41,487 nt of DNA from Minisyncoccota bacterium (GTDB taxonomy: Bacteria; Patescibacteriota; Minisyncoccia; Phycocordibacterales; UBA9973). The position numbers were made by a program, and so were the translations under genes. The stretch is from contig JAGOOX010000003.1 in the NCBI GenBank assembly GCA_017992305.1, positions 1 through 41,487 of the forward strand, given 5' to 3'. The notes under the pieces are model-generated. The model worked only from the letters and a program-made list of their open reading frames with translations. It did not search any database and had not been told where the DNA came from. Below, one piece after another: positions 10,171 to 40,457 of this stretch (its first letter is position 1; each line of letters starts with the position of its first letter).

Positions 10171-10572
10171 ATGGAAAATTTATTACAACATCAAATGTCT
10201 TTTTTAGACTCCACGCAAGGAGGGGTTTTTTTGGGTACTAAAAATGGAAGAAGGTTTTTGCAGAAAGATATTTCAATTCATTGGCTTACCACTCAGATGG
10301 GTAGAAATTGGATAGATTCACCCGATGGTTACAAGTGGCTTTTTGAAAAAGACACAAGAATAAATTGCTTCCTGCACAAAGGCTTGAGTTTACTTACGTG
10401 TGACAACTTAAAAAAGTGGTTAACGGAACACGAAAGGGGCAATAACTGGCTTCATACCGGGCACGGCGTTTTATGGCTTCAAAGTGAAGATGGCCAAAAA
10501 TGGCTTGAATCACCCAGTGGTATTAGTTGGCTTAACGTACCTGATGAATTACTTAGTGTAATAGAATCTTAA
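10171..10572 (+). CDS. Tandem nonapeptide-repeat protein, function unknown
   Basis: 133 residues built almost entirely from about a dozen nine-residue units of the form [F/W]-L-x-S/T-x-x-G-x-x: FLDSTQGGV, FLGTKNGRR, FLQKDISIH, WLTTQMGRN, WIDSPDGYK, and later WLHTGHGVL, WLQSEDGQK, WLESPSGIS. The middle units (about residues 63-92) are degenerate. The fixed period and regular aromatic-Leu pair suggest a solenoid with one unit per turn. I do not recognise a characterised family. No signal peptide is visible. It has its own promoter region and a terminator. Confidence 0.8.
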   Translation: MENLLQHQMSFLDSTQGGVFLGTKNGRRFLQKDISIHWLTTQMGRNWIDSPDGYKWLFEKDTRINCFLHKGLSLLTCDNLKKWLTEHERGNNWLHTGHGVLWLQSEDGQKWLESPSGISWLNVPDELLSVIES

Positions 10573-11824: not shown

Positions 11825-12532
11825 CTAAGGTTTTAGTGGGGTTTTTGTTCTATAAACAGTACGATTTTCTTCTGCGTATTTAACAATGACAGGCTCCCAA
11901 ATACAAACCCCTTCAGATAGTTGCTTACCACCGCTAATAGCATCATAAGCCACCTTAGTTATGTAGACTTCATATGGATAATTTCTTATGTCAGATAGTT
12001 TTGCTGCAAGGCTGGGAGCCTGTCCGATCCAAATTAAGTCATTATTATTTCTAAGTCCCGCACGAACAGCAACCACTTCACCTGAATCAACACCGACACA
12101 ATGTTTAATACGAATATTATTATTCTTTATAGAATCGAATCTTGCAGTTGCTTTTGGGTTAAGTATATTAGTAACGGCCCAGTCTATCTCTCTTGCACAG
12201 CTGACCGCATCAGTATTTGGAGTGTTTGACTTAAAAATTCCCATAACTCGATCTCCATCAAAACTTCTAATTTCTCCACCATGACTACGAATTAACCTTG
12301 TACATAAATTAAGGTAAGCACGAACTATCTTCGCAGTTGTTTGCCAAGGACATTTTTGAGCAAGAACCGATGAACCAGCTAAGTCGGCATACAAAAAAGT
12401 TGCTGTTATTTTTACAGCCTCACCATTTAAGGCCAGATTACTTGAATCAGGAACTATGTTTCCATTTCTAACATTCCAAGCTGTTGTTAGAATACTTTCT
12501 ATTTCTGTTGTTAAAGTGTCAGCTAAAGCCAT
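11825..12532 (-). CDS. pycC: Pycsar-type nucleotide cyclase (PycC-like)
   Basis: 235 residues, a single class III-type cyclase catalytic domain. The metal-binding aspartates are visible as D50 in FLYADLAGSS and D94 in SFDGDRVMGIF; further family-typical blocks are CVGVDSGEVVAVRAGLR, NDLIWIGQAPSLAAKLSDIR. This arrangement matches pyrimidine cyclases of Pycsar systems, which make cCMP or cUMP on phage infection, rather than ordinary adenylate cyclases; I cannot tell which base is used. The start at 12532 (MALADTL) lies two bases after the stop of the upstream effector gene; an upstream in-frame ATG would overlap that gene by 37 bases. Confidence 0.87.
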   Translation of the reverse strand: MALADTLTTEIESILTTAWNVRNGNIVPDSSNLALNGEAVKITATFLYADLAGSSVLAQKCPWQTTAKIVRAYLNLCTRLIRSHGGEIRSFDGDRVMGIFKSNTPNTDAVSCAREIDWAVTNILNPKATARFDSIKNNNIRIKHCVGVDSGEVVAVRAGLRNNNDLIWIGQAPSLAAKLSDIRNYPYEVYITKVAYDAISGGKQLSEGVCIWEPVIVKYAEENRTVYRTKTPLKP

Positions 12533-12534
12533 GA

Positions 12535-13020
12535 TTAATATAGTTTTGAAAAATAAATAGTAATTAACCAAGGGATAACAGATAACAATATCAAAATCAA
12601 CGAAATTTTTAGATAAGAAAATTTTTTAGATAAAATTTGTGCATTTATATGCGTTTGACTAAGAAGGTCATCCAAATATTCTTCATCTGTTAAATCTTTA
12701 AATCTTTTTTTAAAATCACTAACTTTTAAATTTGCGATTGTTCCGAAATAAATTAAAGATGCATTGCTGGACTTGGTTTTAGGGTATTGGCTTTTATAAA
12801 CAAAAATTAAACTAGTGAACAGTAACCCTAATGCTAATCCAAAAGATAAATAAATATACATAGGTTGATTACAAAATGATGTAATTGCATTTACAAGGAC
12901 ACCAAGCATCGCAATGGCAATACCGGAAACAAAAGCAATCCTTGAATCATATCGACTTATCCAATCGAGCTTTCTTTGAAGATTTAGTTCCGCTTGCTCT
13001 ATTCTAATTTTCATAAGCAT
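12535..13020 (-). CDS. pycTM: Pycsar TM effector (PycTM-like)
   Basis: 161 residues. An amphipathic N-terminus leads into ISRYDSRIAFVSGIAIAML (first membrane helix); a second helix is at about YLSFGLALGLLFTSLIF and a third at the C-terminus (LILILLSVIPWLITIYF). The cytosolic part has SLIYFGTIANL and YLDDLLSQTHINAQILSKKF. This is the pattern of the Pycsar membrane effector family (formerly DUF5706, from memory), which disrupts the inner membrane when cyclic pyrimidine nucleotide binds. The ATG at 13020 is chosen because a TATAAT lies 24 bases upstream, inside the longer reading frame. First gene of a two-gene operon with the cyclase. Confidence 0.87.
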   Translation of the reverse strand: MLMKIRIEQAELNLQRKLDWISRYDSRIAFVSGIAIAMLGVLVNAITSFCNQPMYIYLSFGLALGLLFTSLIFVYKSQYPKTKSSNASLIYFGTIANLKVSDFKKRFKDLTDEEYLDDLLSQTHINAQILSKKFSYLKISLILILLSVIPWLITIYFSKLY

Positions 13021-13044
13021 TTTATTTAATCTAATAATATGCAC

Positions 13045-13073
13045 ATTATATACCAAAAAAAGCAATAGTCATA
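13045..13073 (-). promoter_or_regulatory. Promoter of the Pycsar operon
   Basis: Perfect TATAAT at 13050-13045, preceded at 17 bases by the weak -35 TATGAC. The start of transcription should be near 13038, giving a leader of about 18 bases. Confidence 0.6.
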
Positions 13074-14663: not shown

Positions 14664-14717
14664 CTATTTATTAACTTGTAGCCATTGGTAAACATCTTCA
14701 AGGACTTTGACGGCGTT
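14664..14717 (-). pseudogene. Relic of a trxB 3' end
   Basis: The minus strand encodes NAVKVLEDVYQWLQVNK followed by TAG. The intact trxB at 15901 ends DAVKALEDIYQWLQTQK, 12 of 17 residues the same, and about 32 of 42 bases match in my hand alignment. Nothing upstream on this strand continues a thioredoxin-reductase frame. The -35 box of the PurZ-like gene lies inside the relic. Confidence 0.8.
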
Positions 14718-14735
14718 GTAAAATTACTGTAGTAT
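14707..14735 (+). promoter_or_regulatory. Promoter of the PurZ-like gene
   Basis: TTGACG, 17-base spacer, TAGTAT. It predicts a start near 14742 and a leader of about 13 bases without a Shine-Dalgarno. The -35 lies in the trxB relic. Confidence 0.7.
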
Positions 14736-14754: not shown

Positions 14755-15861
14755 ATGGATAAATATCTAGAAAAATATTATGGAAGCCTGGTATCTGCCA
14801 ATGGTTTTCAGTTTGGCTCGGAGGGTAAGGGGGCAATAGTTGAATATCTTGCACCGATTACTTCCGCAGCAGTACGCATTGGTGCACCAAATGCTGGCCA
14901 CACTGTATACTACAATGGATTGCCGTACGTCATGCGTCAAATTCCTTGCGCATGGATAAACCCATATGCAAAATTAATTATCGGAATTTCAGCAGTTATT
15001 AGCTTGCCGATCTTACAAAGTGAAATTGAAAAAATCAATAAGATTTTGCCAATAAAGCACAGATTATATGTTGACCCCAGGGCAATTGTTATTACTGACG
15101 ATCAAATCGCTAGAGAGATGTCAACCGGCCTGGCTGACCGTATTTCAAGCACGTCGGCCAAAGCAGGTCTAGGTATTGGTATGGCTATGAGTGATAAAGT
15201 ATTACGCAGTGAACACTGTTTGTTTGCCAAAGACGTACCTGAATTGCAACAATACATGTGCGATACCGCTGACCTGATTAATGACATGCTCGAGCACGAT
15301 GAAATCGTCGCACTTGAAGGTTCACAAGGATTTGGCCTCAGTTTAGAGCATGGATACTTTCCATTTGTTACTAGTCGAGACACAACTACAATGGCTCTCT
15401 TTGCCGGTGTTGGAGTTAATCCATATGTATTTCATACCGAGGTTATTGGTGTGGTACGAACTTTCCCAATACGAGTAGGTGGGCCGAGTGGTATTTTTGA
15501 CTCAGATTCAAAAGAGGTAAGTTGGAATTATGTAAAAAGATTCTCGGGCTCAAAAAACGATTTGACTGAACGGACCTCGGTAACAAATTCAATTCGTCGG
15601 GTTGCAACATTCAGTTGGCAAGGTTTCGATCGTGCCTGCATGATTAATCGTCCGTCTGAAATTGCTTTAACTTTTGCTGACTACCTCGATGCACGGGCTT
15701 ATAATCAAGAAAATCTTTCAAAATTTCCAAAAATTGAAAATTTTATTGAAATACTAGAGCACCATTCAGGCGTACCGGTTGGACTGGTCAAAACTGGACC
15801 TCAAATTATGATCGATCGTGACACGTATCGTCGTTCGATGATGCGAAAAATGTGTTATTAA
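14755..15861 (+). CDS. PurZ-like / short-form adenylosuccinate synthetase family protein
   Basis: 368 residues of the PurA superfamily, which condenses IMP (PurA) or dGMP (phage PurZ) with aspartate. The P-loop reads FQFGSEGKG: the catalytic Asp of PurA (WGDEGKG) is Ser22, as in phage PurZ (FGSTGKG). The next motif is APNAGHT with His49 kept; PurA usually has NNAGHT. Further blocks: LEGSQGFGLSLEHG, YFPFVTSRDTTT, FPIRVGGPSG and GVPVGLVKTGP; the last resembles the compact archaeal PurA. The gene looks less A+T-rich than its neighbours and sits between a trxB relic and trxB, which suggests acquisition. Superfamily assignment is firm; 2-amino-adenylosuccinate synthesis is inference, and a divergent PurA remains possible. 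Confidence 0.75.
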   Translation: MDKYLEKYYGSLVSANGFQFGSEGKGAIVEYLAPITSAAVRIGAPNAGHTVYYNGLPYVMRQIPCAWINPYAKLIIGISAVISLPILQSEIEKINKILPIKHRLYVDPRAIVITDDQIAREMSTGLADRISSTSAKAGLGIGMAMSDKVLRSEHCLFAKDVPELQQYMCDTADLINDMLEHDEIVALEGSQGFGLSLEHGYFPFVTSRDTTTMALFAGVGVNPYVFHTEVIGVVRTFPIRVGGPSGIFDSDSKEVSWNYVKRFSGSKNDLTERTSVTNSIRRVATFSWQGFDRACMINRPSEIALTFADYLDARAYNQENLSKFPKIENFIEILEHHSGVPVGLVKTGPQIMIDRDTYRRSMMRKMCY

Positions 15862-15885
15862 AAAAGGCGCCCTAGGCGCCTTTTT
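15861..15885. terminator. Bidirectional intrinsic terminator
   Basis: AAAAAGGCGCC - CTA - GGCGCCTTTTT, perfect, between the convergent PurZ-like gene and trxB. Confidence 0.95.
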
Positions 15886-30106: not shown

Positions 30107-30178
30107 TCCTTGGTAGCTCAGCGGTAGAGCGGTCGCCTGTTAAGCGATTGGTCGTAGGTTCGAATCCTACCCAAGGAG
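30107..30178 (+). tRNA. tRNA-Asn (GTT anticodon), likely integration target
   Basis: Acceptor TCCTTGG/CCAAGGA, D arm GCTC/GAGC, anticodon stem GTCGC/GCGAT with loop CTGTTAA (anticodon GTT), T arm GTAGG-TTCGAAT-CCTAC, discriminator G. CCA is not encoded. Its last 12 bases overlap the 3' end of the convergent serine recombinase gene, the arrangement expected at one end of an element inserted into a tRNA gene. Confidence 0.96.
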
Positions 30179-31864
30179 CATTGTAGAAAAAAGTGGGTCA
30201 AATGACTCATTTTTTTCATTTAAGCCTTGTTCTGCAAAGCTTAATTTAGGTTCGAACTTTGGAAATTCTGACTTTATACGTTTTATGCCGTCAGTGAGTA
30301 CTTGTATTGATTTTTTGTTATAAATACTAAGTATTTCGTCGTTCCACACTAGGTTCGAACCAAGGCTTGAAAGTATGTTTCTTTTGGCTTGAAATGATCC
30401 GTTTTGTAAAATCTCAATAGTGCCTTGGGTTAGTTCTGTGATATCTATCATTTCTTGATACCAATCTAAGCTTGATGGGCCTGGCGTGCCTATATCAGAA
30501 TATTCATTTTTTAGATTATTTAAATCAATTTCATAATCGCTATCTGTTATCTTGCTATCTCGAAGCAGGCCACGCAGTCGTGATTTTTTCGATTCAAAAT
30601 CTTGACCCCGTGATTCTTTGTTTTGGGCCATTAAAATATTTTCTGAAATCTCTTTATTTTTCATTTCGTGTATATGTTTTTTAGACCAATCAATTAAGTC
30701 TTTTGAGAAGTTTAGATTTTTATCAATAAAATCCAATAGTTGTGTGGTTATAATTTCTTCGGTTATTGACTTATATTTTTGGCCCGACTTCTTCTTTTTA
30801 ACATTATAGTAATAGGACTTATTCAAGTATTTTGGGTTTTCCATTTTATCAATTTCAATACCGCAACTAGGGCAGTGACTTTTGCTTCTAAAGGCAAATT
30901 TGTTTTTACAGTCACATATAACTTGAAACTTTACGTCTTGACCCATAAAATTACCTTCTTCTGATTGTATAAAGCCAGAGTATATTGATTCGTGACTTTG
31001 TATCTTTGGTATATTTTTACGTGAAAGTATTTGCTTTACTTTGTTGTGTTCTGATTCTGTAATAAGTCTTGGTAAATTTTTATCAAGCTCATACCTTTCG
31101 CCACCGTAAAAGAAGAATCCTGCATATACTGGGTCTTTTAGTATTTCATATATTCTAGACATAACAATTGGGTTTCCACCGCTTCTTTTTCTTTCGGCTG
31201 TTGTTAGGTTAAGTTCGTCTACGGCATATTTATAAAGTTTACCTGCTGAATATGTTCCTGTTAAAAATAGCTCAAAAAGTTTTTTTATTTTCCATATTCT
31301 TTTTTCGTCAACAAGCCACTTTCGATTACCTTTTTCTTCTGTCCTGTCATTAAGAAATCCTAGCGAGGAGACTCCGTGAGGTATTCCCATTGAAGCCTTT
31401 TTAACGTGTCCTCGCTTAACATTTACAGAAAGATCTTTAACATACTGTTTACCTTGGCCAAATTCAACCGACATAAGTAAAACATTATCTGAAGGGTAAT
31501 AAACTTTATCGTGAGTGATGATTGCTTTTATAACACCCGAACTTAACAGGTCGATAATTATTCCACCCTCGCTCATATTTCTAGCTAATCGGTCAATCTT
31601 CCAGCAAACAATTGAATCGGCCATACCTACGTTTATCATTCTTAACATTTCAATAAATTTAGGCCTGCAAGATTCTTTTTTTGCAGACTTAGATTCTTCA
31701 AAAACATTCACAAAGTTTGGTAGTTTGTAAAAATCCACAATTCTTTTTGCTTCGTCTTTTTGAGATTCGATAGATAGCATTTGCTTATCCTCGCTTTCCG
31801 AAGACTTTCTAAAATATCCGATAGGTTTAAGTTTTGTAAAATCTAGTTGGTTATAATTATTCAT
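30167..31864 (-). CDS. Large serine recombinase
   Basis: 565 residues. N-terminal resolvase domain with catalytic serine in GYFRKSSESEDKQMLSIESQ and the arginine region DSIVCWKIDRLARN; recombinase domain (YEILKDPVYAGFFFYGGERY); a zinc ribbon CDC...CPSC at about residues 340-361; and a coiled-coil-rich C-terminus. These enzymes integrate and excise phages and mobile elements at specific att sites. The start at 31864 is chosen because the extension would need a TTG within the terminator run. The stop lies within tRNA-Asn, so this end of the element is probably intact. Confidence 0.95.
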   Translation of the reverse strand: MNNYNQLDFTKLKPIGYFRKSSESEDKQMLSIESQKDEAKRIVDFYKLPNFVNVFEESKSAKKESCRPKFIEMLRMINVGMADSIVCWKIDRLARNMSEGGIIIDLLSSGVIKAIITHDKVYYPSDNVLLMSVEFGQGKQYVKDLSVNVKRGHVKKASMGIPHGVSSLGFLNDRTEEKGNRKWLVDEKRIWKIKKLFELFLTGTYSAGKLYKYAVDELNLTTAERKRSGGNPIVMSRIYEILKDPVYAGFFFYGGERYELDKNLPRLITESEHNKVKQILSRKNIPKIQSHESIYSGFIQSEEGNFMGQDVKFQVICDCKNKFAFRSKSHCPSCGIEIDKMENPKYLNKSYYYNVKKKKSGQKYKSITEEIITTQLLDFIDKNLNFSKDLIDWSKKHIHEMKNKEISENILMAQNKESRGQDFESKKSRLRGLLRDSKITDSDYEIDLNNLKNEYSDIGTPGPSSLDWYQEMIDITELTQGTIEILQNGSFQAKRNILSSLGSNLVWNDEILSIYNKKSIQVLTDGIKRIKSEFPKFEPKLSFAEQGLNEKNESFDPLFSTMLLG

Positions 31865-31867
31865 AGA

Positions 31868-31987
31868 CAAAAATGAGGCAACGACCGATTACTTTTAGTT
31901 GCTACACCAAAGAAGAGTCGTTACCTCGTTTTTATATACAAGAATACTGTTTTTATTTTAATATTCTTATATTTCTTTGGTGTAGCA
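31868..31987 (-). promoter_or_regulatory. Conditional-terminator/pseudoknot leader of the recombinase
   Basis: On the minus strand, GAGGTAACGAC (31927-31917) pairs with GTCGTTGCCTC (31885-31875; one mismatch) and is followed by a U-rich run that ends four bases before the recombinase ATG. The hairpin loop contains TTCTTTGGTGTAGCA (31914-31900), an exact complement of TGCTACACCAAAGAA (31987-31973) upstream. The two stems cross, so they can form a pseudoknot or compete. Confidence 0.7.
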
Positions 31988-34800: not shown

Positions 34801-37800
34801 ATGATAAAATCAAGCCTTATGGAATCCCAAGAAAATGAAACTATACAAGATATTAAAGACCTGATCAAAAGACCAGTTGCTTCAATAATTTCTCCCCCTG
34901 TCACTCCAAATGCCCAAAGTTTACCGTTTAATAATTTAAGCTGGGAGGATTTTGAGGTTTTATGTCTTAAGCTTGTTTCAAACGAAGCAAATGTTGAAGA
35001 AGCAAGACCATATGGCACAAAAGGGCAAAAACAAGATGGGATTGATGTTTATGCAAAGATGAAAAATAATTCTGACTACTCAGTATATCAATGTAAGAAT
35101 GAAAAGGATTTTAGTCCATCAAAAATAGAAAAGGCAGTGACTAAATTTATTGATGGCAAATGGTTAAAATCTACAAAAACTTTTGTTTTATGTAGTCAAG
35201 AAAGTCTTGCTTCTACAATAAGATCAGATGAAATAGAGAAACAAAGAAATAGACTGGGTAAGGAAAAAGTTAAATTTGAGATTTGGGATACAGTAAAATT
35301 AAACCAAAAACTTAAATCAAATCCGCAATTAGTTTTCGACACATTTGGACCTGAATGGTTAAAAAACTTTTGTGGAGAGTCAGTCGCTACTAGCATAATT
35401 ACAACTTCTCCAAAAATTGATACTCTTAAACTTAAAAAGGATCTTTTGAATTTCTATCAATATACTTTTGCGTTTCACGATCCTGGTATACCCAGTTCAG
35501 CTATTGGTAAGCAAAACATACCACTACAAGATAGATTTGTTGTACCTTTTATAAATGAAAAAACTTCGTATTCGGAAACTCTTGAGAAAGCATCTGAAAG
35601 TGACGAGGATATAGACACCTCACTTGTAGGTGCTGATGTAGAAGAAGATCGAGTAAAGATTATTAAGGCTAGGGCCTCAATATTAAATGATTTTAACGAC
35701 CAAAGAAAGAACATAGATAATTGGCTTGCTTTAAGTAATAAAAACATTATATTAGGAGAGCCTGGTAGTGGAAAAACAATGCTACTGAGATTTATAGCAT
35801 TAGATTTATTAAAAAATACTAACCAACTTGAGAACCTTTCCAATGAATACAGAGACCATATTCCACTATGGATTTCTTTTGCCTTTTGGACGAAGATGAT
35901 TTCTCAAAAGCAAGATTTATCGATGAACGAAATTATCGAGAAGTGGCTCAACAGTTGGTCAAAAAGCGAACTCGTACCTCTGATAAACCAAGCATTGTCG
36001 ACAAAAAAGATTTTACTTTTAGTAGATGGTCTTGACGAATGGAGCGACGAATTATCAGCTAAAATTGCAATAGATCGATTGAGCATATTTGTTGGAGAAA
36101 ATAATCTCCCAACTTTTATTACGAGCAGAATAAATGGATTTAAAAAGTTAGGAATATCAACAATAGACTGGAAAGTAGGTTATATAGAGGGCTTTGATGC
36201 AAATCAACAGAAAGAGTTGAGTAATATTTGGTTTAAAGCAAGAGTCAAAGAAATACATTCTGGCGAAAAGCAAGTCTCGGCTGAAGTCATCTCAAAAGAA
36301 TCTGCCTTAGAGACTCAGAATTTCTTAGAAGAATTACAAAATTCTCCTGCACTCAAAGAACTTGGGAGAATTCCGTTACTCCTTTCTCTCTTAATCCTTC
36401 TAAAATTACAGAAAATAAAATTACCTCAAAATAGATTTAAAGCTTACGATGAATTGATAAATCATTTGATCGGTGTTCATCCTGAAAAAAGAAAAGTAAC
36501 TTCTGGAGCTAATGTTAAAGAGCTTACTTTTTCAAACGACGAACTCAAAAAAATTTTTTCTCATTTAGCTTTTACTATTCAAAGTGTTAACGGTAGTGGA
36601 ACTATTGATCAAGAAGAGGCAAAGAAAAATATAATAAGATTTCTTATTGATGATAGTTACGGTTTGTCTTCCTCAGAAGTTGACGCTAAAAAGATTGCTT
36701 CTGTTATTGTTGAAGTTGGCGAAGATAATCTTGGATTACTTGTTAAAAAATCACCTCAAGAAATTGGCTTCTTTCATAGGGCCTTTCAGGAATATTTATC
36801 AGCTTTCCATATATCTAGATTGCCTTTAAAAGAACAGAAAAAAATTATTTTAGAAAACTCCACAAACCCTCAATGGAAAGAGGTTATTCTGAGTATGTTT
36901 AATCTCTCAATGAGAAACGAAGATACTGACAACTTTATTGATCTTCTTTTACCGCTAAGAAAAGACTTAAGTAATAAACCAGCCATAGACTCTATTTTAT
37001 ATGAAGTTGCGTTTGGTGACTTTAATTGTTCTCCTAAAAAAGCTAGAGACTTAATCAATGAGGCTTTTAATGACGTAGAATCTCCGCTACCTATTAGTTA
37101 TAGAGAAAAAGTTCTAGGTCAAATACTGGGCGGTCTTAGATCAGCTCAAGCTAGAAAAATTGTTGAGGAAAAACTACACTATTGGTTTCCTAATCAACTC
37201 GGTGGTTATTGGAATAAAGACTCTGTTTATAAGGAGATGTCATCTTGGCCAAAAGAAACAGTTACTTTGGACACATTATGGCTAGGAGTAGTTGATGGAT
37301 CGAGAAACGCAGGTAAGAGCTTGGCTGCTATTTATAAAAATGACAAAGCTCTTGAGAGAAAACTAGAAGAACTAATCCACTCCACTACAAATCCAACAGT
37401 TCAAGCTGTTGCTCTGGAGGCATTATTAATTGGATGGAAGAATGGCTCGGTGACTAAAAAATTGTTTGGTATGATAAAAGACTCTACAAACTCTGCACTA
37501 AAAACGTTGTCAATAATATACAAGATTGCCAATAAGCAACAGACAGAAAAAGATAGAAAAGACCTCATTTGGCTATCTAATTGGGAGAGTGGCCTCTCGA
37601 ATCAATGGCAAGCCGATATAGCGGATCTTTTAATGAAGGGTTGGCCTCATTCGCAATTAACAAAGAAAGTGGCTTTAAGCTCATATGCTTCTTATGGCCG
37701 TGAATTTGATAGAACCCCAGCACTAACTGTTCTCCTAAAAGATTATCCGTATGATAAAGATGTAAGGGGTTTCGCTCTTAATCAAATAAAATATGATCAG

Positions 37801-39786
37801 CATCCATTTTCGAGCATTCATCTAGACTCTTGGAAAATGTTAAGTACCAGTTTTAAAGATGATCCTGAATTAATATTAGCAATCGATGAATGGATAACTT
37901 CCAAAAACCCTATGGATACAGATGCCTCTTTAGCTTCTCTTTTAGGAAGAACAGAAGTCTGTAAAAAATATTTAATAAAAAAAGTACAAGAGAGAGGGTT
38001 TATTCATTGGCCAGCGTCTGCGCTTCTTGATGGTTGGGGTATTAAAGATCCTGACGTTAAATCCGTATTAGTAAAAATTGCGAGAGGGCCCGTAACTAAA
38101 GCATCTTCTGTGGCACATCTTATCCCTAGAATAATTATTGATCCAAAAGAAGCTAAGAACTTGTTGATGAAAATGATGCGAGATAAAAAATGCGAAAGGA
38201 TAGACTTCGCAGTTGAAGGATTGTCTCAATTAAACAAATCGAAAAAAATGGAGGGAGAAATTGTTACATTTATTATCGACGAGGTTCTTCCTCGAAAAAA
38301 AGCTAGAATGTATGACGGTTTTTTACATAGATTCATAAGAGAATTTTCAAAGGATAGTAGGGTTAAAGAAATTGCAAAAACTGTTTTAATCGACAAAGAC
38401 TTTGATGCTTCAATAGCGGCTGGCGTATATTTTAAAGACGGTGAAATTAGACAAAGAATTAATACTCTGATGCGTTCATTGCCTACATCTTTAAAGATGG
38501 TAATAGCGAAATATTTAGCTGAAAATACGATAGATATTGAATTTGAATCAACTATTTTAAGTTCTTACGATATGGATCACGACGAAGATGTTAAAGTTCA
38601 GGCATCTATTGGTTTCTACAACAAGTTAAAATCTAAAGGTCAAGATAATTCTACTGTTTTAGCAAAACTCATTGAGGATATTGGTTGTTACGGACCCGAT
38701 TATACAGAACGTCGATTGGCCGCATTTTGTGGGCTCTTTATCTTAGGACACCTACCTAAGGTTTTAACTCTAAATGAAAAAATGAGATCGGCGGATAAAA
38801 CAGAAAGATTTGTAAACATTTCAGTAATTGAAGGTATGAGAATTAATTTGCCAATGATTAAATTTGTACTTGAAAATTGGGATGAAATAAAATTAATATT
38901 AAAAACAGAGTTTTGGCAAAGACTATTTGCACACCATTCATCCTCTGAATATGTGTGGGATAAGTTATGTATACTTGCCGATAAATATAACACGCCCAAA
39001 AAAGAGGCTTTGGGTTATTTCACAAATCTTCATACAAAAGTAGCAAGATCAAATAGTCTGTATTTCCTAGAAAGAACTGTCCCTAAAAGCCTTCTTCTTC
39101 TGGAGTACTGCTTAAATGTTATAGCTGTTACAAATAGAAACGACCCACAATACCTTAGGCATAATGAAATAACTCATAGTGATAGTCTGGTGGCAGTTGA
39201 AATTCTGGGCAGGAATTTTAAGGGAGATGAAAAAGTTCAAGAAATGATTGAAGCCAGGATTAATACTAAAATGCCTGTTGATGAGAATGCAATTAAACTA
39301 TTAAGCGAGGGATGGCCCAACAGTACCTATCTACAAACATCTTTCGACTATCTTGCAAAGAACAGCCCTCAAATTTCTTGGGGTACTTATTTTAGAATGG
39401 TTAGTTTAAAAGGGAGTAATAAAGCAATTATTAAAGGTGTTTCTGATCTACTTATGACATATGAAAAAACTCCTCAAAATGCTAGATTTTTTTCATCGAT
39501 CATTAAACCCGTCTTAAAAAGGCTTCAGAAAGATGACGAGTTGTATCAACTAATGTTAAAGAAAATTAAATCTGACTGCACTTTTTCTGAAAGAATAAGT
39601 TTCCTACAATTAATCCTAAAAGCTCGTGGTTTGAATAGTGAAACAAAGTTTATCTTAGCTACAATATCAAAGAAAATAACCAAAGAGAACGTCTTTGACT
39701 ACGGTTTTGATATTACTGATGGGGAAATTAAAACGTTGAAAAGGGTATTGGCAAATTTTTACTTCCAAGAAAAATCGTACTCATAA
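34801..39786 (+). CDS. Giant STAND protein: PD-(D/E)XK nuclease - NACHT - helical repeat sensor
   Basis: 1661 residues. Residues about 45-120 form a restriction-endonuclease-like (Mrr-type) domain with D79/D82 (QDGID) and Q97-x-K99 (YQCKN). The NACHT NTPase has Walker A GEPGSGKT (319-326), Walker B ILLLVDGLDEW (404-414) and sensor FITSRINGF, ending near FFHRAFQEYLSAFH. The remaining roughly 900 residues are alpha-helical repeats suited to sensing a ligand. This is the plan of Avs/bNACHT anti-phage proteins, where phage-protein binding triggers oligomerisation and DNA cutting. Arginine is almost always AGA/AGG, unlike the core genes, which suggests transfer. Which Avs class, and what it senses, cannot be read from the sequence. 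Confidence 0.88.
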   Translation: MIKSSLMESQENETIQDIKDLIKRPVASIISPPVTPNAQSLPFNNLSWEDFEVLCLKLVSNEANVEEARPYGTKGQKQDGIDVYAKMKNNSDYSVYQCKNEKDFSPSKIEKAVTKFIDGKWLKSTKTFVLCSQESLASTIRSDEIEKQRNRLGKEKVKFEIWDTVKLNQKLKSNPQLVFDTFGPEWLKNFCGESVATSIITTSPKIDTLKLKKDLLNFYQYTFAFHDPGIPSSAIGKQNIPLQDRFVVPFINEKTSYSETLEKASESDEDIDTSLVGADVEEDRVKIIKARASILNDFNDQRKNIDNWLALSNKNIILGEPGSGKTMLLRFIALDLLKNTNQLENLSNEYRDHIPLWISFAFWTKMISQKQDLSMNEIIEKWLNSWSKSELVPLINQALSTKKILLLVDGLDEWSDELSAKIAIDRLSIFVGENNLPTFITSRINGFKKLGISTIDWKVGYIEGFDANQQKELSNIWFKARVKEIHSGEKQVSAEVISKESALETQNFLEELQNSPALKELGRIPLLLSLLILLKLQKIKLPQNRFKAYDELINHLIGVHPEKRKVTSGANVKELTFSNDELKKIFSHLAFTIQSVNGSGTIDQEEAKKNIIRFLIDDSYGLSSSEVDAKKIASVIVEVGEDNLGLLVKKSPQEIGFFHRAFQEYLSAFHISRLPLKEQKKIILENSTNPQWKEVILSMFNLSMRNEDTDNFIDLLLPLRKDLSNKPAIDSILYEVAFGDFNCSPKKARDLINEAFNDVESPLPISYREKVLGQILGGLRSAQARKIVEEKLHYWFPNQLGGYWNKDSVYKEMSSWPKETVTLDTLWLGVVDGSRNAGKSLAAIYKNDKALERKLEELIHSTTNPTVQAVALEALLIGWKNGSVTKKLFGMIKDSTNSALKTLSIIYKIANKQQTEKDRKDLIWLSNWESGLSNQWQADIADLLMKGWPHSQLTKKVALSSYASYGREFDRTPALTVLLKDYPYDKDVRGFALNQIKYDQHPFSSIHLDSWKMLSTSFKDDPELILAIDEWITSKNPMDTDASLASLLGRTEVCKKYLIKKVQERGFIHWPASALLDGWGIKDPDVKSVLVKIARGPVTKASSVAHLIPRIIIDPKEAKNLLMKMMRDKKCERIDFAVEGLSQLNKSKKMEGEIVTFIIDEVLPRKKARMYDGFLHRFIREFSKDSRVKEIAKTVLIDKDFDASIAAGVYFKDGEIRQRINTLMRSLPTSLKMVIAKYLAENTIDIEFESTILSSYDMDHDEDVKVQASIGFYNKLKSKGQDNSTVLAKLIEDIGCYGPDYTERRLAAFCGLFILGHLPKVLTLNEKMRSADKTERFVNISVIEGMRINLPMIKFVLENWDEIKLILKTEFWQRLFAHHSSSEYVWDKLCILADKYNTPKKEALGYFTNLHTKVARSNSLYFLERTVPKSLLLLEYCLNVIAVTNRNDPQYLRHNEITHSDSLVAVEILGRNFKGDEKVQEMIEARINTKMPVDENAIKLLSEGWPNSTYLQTSFDYLAKNSPQISWGTYFRMVSLKGSNKAIIKGVSDLLMTYEKTPQNARFFSSIIKPVLKRLQKDDELYQLMLKKIKSDCTFSERISFLQLILKARGLNSETKFILATISKKITKENVFDYGFDITDGEIKTLKRVLANFYFQEKSYS

Positions 39787-39791
39787 TTATT

Positions 39792-40457
39792 TTATTTATA
39801 CTCAGGTTTAATTTCATAAACTCTTGAATCAAGAGAGTTTTCCTTGAAATCAAATTGTTTTAGATTTACAAAGTCTGAACCTACAGGCAAATCAATAAAC
39901 ACTCCTTGTTTGTAATCAAAATCAGGAGATTTCACTAAAGTTAAAAGTTTTACTATATCAAATAGTCTAGCTTCCTTGTCGGTGTTACTGGTCTTCTTTG
40001 CTTCTATAACAATGTAGTTATTTGAAGTACCTCTCTGGTGAACAATAATATCAGGATATACGGTTTTCTCGATGGTTTTACCGTTGGTTAGTTTAAGTAT
40101 GAAGTAAACTATTTCTAATTCTTCATCATATTTAAATTTAGGGTTTCGAAGTTGATTCTCTAGGTTTCTTATTTCTTCGTATGAGAAAGCTTCACGATTT
40201 ATATTTTCTTTATAAAAATTTCCCTCAAGAGTGTTTGCCATTTGAGTCAACAGCATACCTGGATCTATGAGTATCTTTTTTTTACTACCAAGGTTTCTGT
40301 TGTATTCACAATCAACATTCCAACTAGAGAAGAGGTACTGATAGTATTCGGCTAATTTATGAGTAATAGAACGTTCATTTAGGTTATTAGCTAACAAATA
40401 AGCGTCATTACTAATGAGCAGGTGTAGTCCAGCTTTTACTCGGTAATTTAACCCCAT
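39792..40457 (-). CDS. PD-(D/E)XK nuclease-like protein
   Basis: 221 residues. A helix with ITHKLAEYYQYL (possible motif I Glu37) precedes the core YPDIIVHQRG (D136) and YIVIEAKK (E152-x-K154), the PD-(D/E)XK signature of restriction-like nucleases. No helicase or methylase accompanies it. Its stop is 5 bases from the end of the convergent NACHT gene. It may be a partner effector or a lone nuclease-like defence gene; DNA cleavage is inference from the motif. Confidence 0.72.
   Translation of the reverse strand: MGLNYRVKAGLHLLISNDAYLLANNLNERSITHKLAEYYQYLFSSWNVDCEYNRNLGSKKKILIDPGMLLTQMANTLEGNFYKENINREAFSYEEIRNLENQLRNPKFKYDEELEIVYFILKLTNGKTIEKTVYPDIIVHQRGTSNNYIVIEAKKTSNTDKEARLFDIVKLLTLVKSPDFDYKQGVFIDLPVGSDFVNLKQFDFKENSLDSRVYEIKPEYK

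Follow-up and report, generated by a model that had tools for sequence, protein, structure and literature searches.

The window, that is, the whole 41,487-nt stretch of DNA analysed here, harbours a gene which we regard, with a probability of roughly 0.6, as encoding a GTP-using PurZ0-like synthetase, as having entered a Patescibacteria chromosome by capture from a lineage associated with phages, and as likely to act as an accessory that alters the dGMP pool. Not all parts of this reading are equally firm. The assignment of the product to the PurZ-like synthetases of the GTP type, which rests on its clade, residues and fold, is well supported, and the derivation of the gene from a phage-associated lineage is supported by the sequence tree; dGMP is the likely substrate, and GTP would be the donor judging by the residues of the corresponding site. 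As to the cellular role, our best guess, based on the gene neighbourhood and on analogy, is an accessory or defence function, probably within a mobile or defence region.

The gene was delineated from the ORF list and by direct reading of the sequence, and begins with an ATG codon. In agreement with the original prediction, its product carries QFGSEGKG (residues 19–26), with serine at position 22, and PNAGHT (residues 45–50). Since aspartate is encoded by GAT or GAC, and the conversion of the TCG codon of Ser22 to GAC would take three base changes, a single sequencing error is not the cause of the substitution. The profile search led to phrog_1211 (adenylosuccinate synthetase; E=7e-59), and the likeness to PurA/PurZ greatly exceeds what chance would give. 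The curated NCBIfam cut-offs were nevertheless not reached: the protein scored 250 bits against the archaeal-type PurA model (cut-off 368), 202 bits against PurZ NF038379 (cut-off 300) and 173 bits against the second PurA equivalog (cut-off 396). Given the score against NF038379, the protein is named PurZ-like rather than a curated PurZ. The function of the clade that it forms with its sister sequence L054 is to be read as a prediction.

The best match in a PDB sequence search was PurA of P. horikoshii (184 bits), followed by PurZ of phage phiVC8 (133 bits) and PurZ0 (125 bits). The AlphaFold2 model, built from an alignment of 41 relatives with a mean pLDDT of 93, matched, in order, 5k7x (TM 0.92), PurZ0 (7vf6) and PurZ (6fko), so that the likeness to short archaeal PurA noticed earlier was right as to the fold. 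These top matches, together with a retained GTP-type donor Asp, would also suit an ordinary adenylosuccinate synthetase that converts IMP into adenylosuccinate and tolerates the exchange of Asp for Ser. Such an enzyme is, however, highly improbable in view of the grouping of the protein with PurZ and the presence of PurZ residues and insertion, which are described below.

Relatives were gathered from phage and plasmid records, GTDB genomes and viral contigs. In GTDB genomes 409 stretches encode a relative, and 79 of these loci (L054–L132) were kept and read. The viral contigs provided 251 stretches with a relative, found by an alignment query alone, the scan with a single sequence having returned none; 80 were kept, of which 74 gave a motif-bearing ORF, with Ser in 74/74. 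Plasmid matches in E. coli, Klebsiella and similar bacteria (matching at ∼26%) look, from their annotation, like ordinary PurA and were set aside. An Asp-type PurA-like enzyme with the motif WGDEAKG, encoded in a 7-deazapurine-type biosynthetic cluster of a Rhizobium leguminosarum plasmid (L050, 7354–15694), was likewise rejected as a PurZ relative and falls outside the Ser clade.

In the IQ-TREE phylogeny of 62 sequences, all 49 PurZ-like Ser sequences from phages and cells formed one clade (SH-aLRT 99.8/bootstrap 100), with every PurA outside, including that of Pyrococcus; the short-type group that includes Pyrococcus PurA was supported with 100/100. The Ser clade received 100/100 in a later tree including viral contigs. 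The gene thus belongs with PurZ and not with PurA, as had been proposed. The window protein does not lie inside the phage PurZ0 clade, which is a 100/100 clade of its own in the 62-sequence tree. The view of the gene as an evolutionary intermediate stood in part: the GTP-type D309 makes the protein PurZ0-like, but the deep branch order within the Ser clade is not settled.

Alignment column counts revealed that S22, E121, S132, R235 and I239 are common to 49/49 sequences of the Ser clade and differ in PurA, while T274 and the insertion at G243 (G243–S245 in the window protein) also separate the two groups; the window protein has every one of these diagnostic residues. For PurZ of cyanophage S-2L, published data locate the Ser, T273 and the inserted loop near V241 at the dGMP and aspartate sites; this loop shifts V241 towards the ribose C2' (PMC8342488). 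With PurZ of Vibrio phage phiVC8 and of S-2L (6fko, 7odx) the window protein shares the Ser, T274, the IRVGG.SG insertion and PNAGHT. The three phage PurZ sequences aligned (JSF33, BUCT555, ZP6), however, show a donor site of the ATP type, with Asn, and carry Thr after the Ser, whereas the window protein has Glu in the latter position and, like PurA and PurZ0, the GTP-type D309 of the TFAD motif (column table). The donor site of S-2L PurZ is Gln (PMC8342488). Archaeal short PurA (P. horikoshii, 5k7x) has the same fold and a GTP donor Asp, but bears Asp in place of Ser22, has neither the insertion nor the Ser-clade residues, and lies outside the clade.

Phage PurZ0, represented in the alignment by related sequences from Ghobes, Galactica, Parvaparticeps and Goodman, resembles the window protein in the Ser of the P-loop motif, the Glu after it, the GTP-type Asp of the donor site, T274, the insertion after IRV and the short PurA fold. 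The identity, however, amounts to ∼30%, the window protein has in addition a 4-residue insertion and S279, and PurZ0 is found beside DutZ/DmtZ in a Z-genome, whereas the window gene is lone and chromosomal. The column of S279, which probably corresponds to R303 of E. coli, contains Lys or Arg in 46/49 Ser-clade sequences and Arg in PurA; hence the binding of aspartate by the window protein may be weaker. The remaining catalytic positions checked are all kept.

PurZ0 is said, in a 2023 Nature Microbiology report, to act on dGMP. PurZ acts on dGMP as well (PMC8342488). Certain viruses employ genes of this kind to produce 2-aminoadenine, an unusual DNA base. By analogy, the window protein would bind (d)GMP, most likely dGMP, along with GTP and aspartate; GTP would activate the guanine O6 and aspartate would be joined to C6, yielding N6-succino-2-amino-(deoxy)AMP, with Ser22, which replaces the Asp of PurA as in PurZ, presumably placed beside the 2-amino group of guanine. 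The gene would most likely serve as a moron or defence gene that shifts the dGMP pool in phage infection. The deoxy-selectivity of the protein is itself a prediction, and the PurA family was repurposed in the 7-deazapurine-like cluster of Rhizobium, so one could also think of another guanine-like substrate (GMP or a 7-deazaguanine nucleotide) being turned into a modified purine for another pathway. This seems quite improbable, since the Rhizobium enzyme keeps the Asp and is not a Ser-clade member, both characterised Ser-type groups act on dGMP, and no deazapurine genes were seen among the window ORFs.

The genome containing the window comprises 609 kb in 52 contigs and is 87.6% complete, thus absences from it are not certain. 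The window gene is its sole PF00709 match, a separate PurA being absent, and single-family searches gave no match for PurB, IMPDH, MazG, HD_3 or dNK in this genome, while the controls for these families matched in other genomes. DUF7002 and U243 gave no match either, in searches without a positive control that carry no weight by themselves. With PurA, PurB, IMPDH, MazG, HD_3 and dNK not found, the product would stand outside the cell's own purine synthesis and outside a complete Z pathway. The idea of a CPR cell making 2-amino-dA precursors end to end was therefore not supported, as PurB, which would be needed to cleave the succino-intermediate, IMPDH and dNK were not detected. On the other hand, the gene does appear to be a lone one without DatZ, MazZ or DpoZ, as far as HD_3 and MazG were searched, which sets it apart from phage PurZ with its datZ/mazZ partners. 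The lack of PurB to use adenylosuccinate also argues against an ordinary PurA, as do 67 other genomes of the family, whose weaker matches are apparently canonical long PurA that the window genome lacks.

The sister of the window protein is an intact protein (51% identity) encoded by L054, another Patescibacteria chromosome contig, with no operon partners near its gene. Both form a clade with the viral contigs L201 and L202 (95.1/99), characterised by a common 4-residue insertion, and the phage-related origin considered initially is thus likely. In L202 a family A DNA polymerase gene (DNA_pol_A) lies beside the PurZ-like gene, whereas L201 contains tail- and lysis-type genes (identified by eye) and, near its PurZ-like gene, encodes a nucleoside-deoxyribosyltransferase-like protein (Nuc_deoxyrib_tr, E=2e-5, below the Pfam cut-off). 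Phage Z synthesis is accompanied by such genes, DmtZ and DpoZ (PMC12884076), for which those of L201 and L202 are candidates only. Another phage-like stretch, L107 from a Bacteroidetes MAG, encodes PurZ-like, dUTPase-like and lyase-like proteins and groups with PurZ0 (95.9/95).

Among 147 genomes of the bacterial family the window gene occurs in one, the other 146, including two of the same genus, being without it. This single occurrence, the solitary position beside a trxB relic and S279, which departs from nearly all relatives, are what might be expected of a freshly captured phage gene or a decaying relic without present function in the cell, and a related Patescibacteria copy (L033/L061) indeed has an in-frame stop. 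We consider this unlikely, because the ORF is intact, the other catalytic positions checked are kept, the fold is predicted with high confidence, and L054 represents an intact chromosomal relative in another Patescibacteria genome. The interrupted copy (L033, 8384–9391, the same as L061) adjoins gyrB and has the motif FGSEAKG and an Asn donor site; L070 is an intact relative of it, and L035 is partial.

Features of the gene and its surroundings are listed in Table 1. The gene lies between a relic of the trxB 3'-end and an intact trxB-ftsZ-ftsA block, a site at which relatives carry different genes. An intact prophage was considered and rejected, no phage hallmark gene adjoining the gene. A large serine recombinase (integrase, phrog_95) is encoded 14 kb away (30167–31870), suggesting an integrated element in that part of the window. 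The stretch 34801–40457 holds possible further defence genes: one encodes a protein of 1661 aa that weakly matches PtuA/AAA, and its neighbour matches PD-Lambda-3_A. The product of 10171–10572 is a 133-aa protein built from repeated units of the G-x-x-W-L type.

Table 1. Positions of the PurZ-like gene, its diagnostic sites and neighbouring features in the window.
Feature	Position	Strand	Basis
PycC, Pycsar cyclase, neighbouring defence gene	11825..12571	-	PADLOC PycC E=4.7e-80
PycTM-type 2TM effector, neighbouring defence gene	12535..13065	-	PADLOC PycTM E=4.1e-33
trxB 3'-end relic (NAVKVLEDVYQWLQVNK*), matches the intact trxB end across the window gene	14664..14717	-	local alignment score 51 vs <=37 in 200 shuffles; score includes adjacent hairpin
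Possible promoter TTGACG-17-TAGTAT, -35 inside trxB relic	14707..14735	+	consensus scan only, 9/12; region has 12 such sites vs 5.2 expected
PurZ-like (PurZ0-like) succino-2-amino-deoxyadenylate synthetase homologue, 368 aa	14755..15861	+	ORF; phrog_1211; Ser clade 99.8/100; AF2 model
Ser22 codon TCG in FGSEGKG; position of catalytic Asp13 of E. coli PurA	14818..14820	+	sequence; Ser 49/49 clade, Asp 12/12 PurA
4 extra residues in STSAKAG, shared only by L054 and phage contigs L201/L202 among sequences printed	15157..15168	+	alignment
PurZ-type loop insertion 3' of IRVG (GPSGIFDSDSKEVS)	15481..15522	+	G243 42/49 Ser clade, gap 12/12 PurA
Thr274; counterpart of PurZ-specific S-2L T273 (Gly in PurA)	15574..15576	+	alignment columns
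GTP-type donor residue Asp309 in TFAD; three aligned phage PurZ have Asn	15679..15681	+	column table
Intrinsic terminator directly 3' of window gene, before convergent trxB	15861..15885	+	11-pair stem + T run

Cellular genes of the PurZ group have been noted before: four PurZ-related sequences from archaea, bearing Ser or Gly, are reported to branch basal to phage PurZ (PMC12884076). In being cellular these are like the window gene; however, they are few and confined to archaea, whereas the present case comes from Patescibacteria and is accompanied by hundreds of bacterial and archaeal genes, with operons that are conserved. The cellular PurZ-like (Ser) genes, ∼400 loci in all, apparently constitute a large and undescribed set; the PMC literature searched gave no account of DUF7002, of a Patescibacteria PurZ or of PurZ operons in cellular genomes.

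Most of the cellular loci inspected fall into two conserved operons according to neighbour clustering (79 loci read, e.g. L110 from Pseudomonas for operon A and L063 from Peptococcaceae for operon B). Operon A encodes a protein of ∼540 aa that joins a P-loop kinase-like domain at the N-terminus to a PurZ-like C-terminus. An ImmA/IrrE peptidase that weakly matches DarG-macro is usually encoded immediately upstream (43 loci), and DUF7002 downstream (58 loci). The PDB entries matched by the model of DUF7002 (A3; L099:9026-9694; pLDDT 96.8) were DarT1 (8baq, E=3e-4) and DarT, with a TM of about 0.45; a DarT-like ADP-ribosyltransferase fold is therefore predicted as a fold-level lead, in which the invariant Glu192 would be a candidate catalytic residue. 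In operon B a PurZ-like protein of ∼348 aa occurs together with a membrane-tailed dCTP-deaminase-like protein (16 loci), with dNK (9 loci) and sometimes with PurB. Type I restriction genes were found near 7 cellular PurZ-like loci. Most of the 24 genomes examined for PurA also have the canonical enzyme; a PurZ-like gene without PurA was found in three Patescibacteria and two Nanoarchaeota, all with reduced genomes, and in one Lachnospiraceae.

This company, the restriction genes and the Pycsar pair located 1.7 kb from the window gene raise the question of whether the latter is a defence gene that signals through nucleotides or changes their pool, a modified guanine nucleotide serving as an alarm or a poison, which might hold for cellular PurZ-like genes more widely. 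Being a special form of the accessory role, with which its probability overlaps, this version is possible yet rather doubtful: the window gene has no operon partners (dNK was not found, nor were DUF7002 and U243 in the uncontrolled searches mentioned above), and its clade stands apart from both operon clades in IQ-TREE. A link between the window clade and the kinase-PurZ operon clade appeared in FastTree only and, as it was not recovered by IQ-TREE, was dropped.

The preferred reading of the window gene as a captured, PurZ0-like accessory gene may be extended to the whole family, though here the odds lean against us. Rather than being peculiar to phages, PurZ-type synthetases might be the core enzyme of a widespread, undescribed group of immune or conflict systems in prokaryotes, by which guanine deoxynucleotides are converted into nucleotides with a modified base, one combining a kinase-PurZ fusion with the DarT-like DUF7002 and ImmA/IrrE-macro, the other PurZ with the dCTP-deaminase-like membrane protein, dNK and sometimes PurB; the phage Z pathway would share this root, and the window gene would be a stripped-down, phage-borne offshoot. 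Until now PurZ has been regarded as an enzyme of phages, with a few relatives from archaea at the base. With a chromosomal PurZ-like gene in a genome without detected PurA or PurB, and hundreds of loci in defence-like operons, both the origin of 2-aminoadenine DNA and the possibility that modified guanine nucleotides have an immune use become directly testable.
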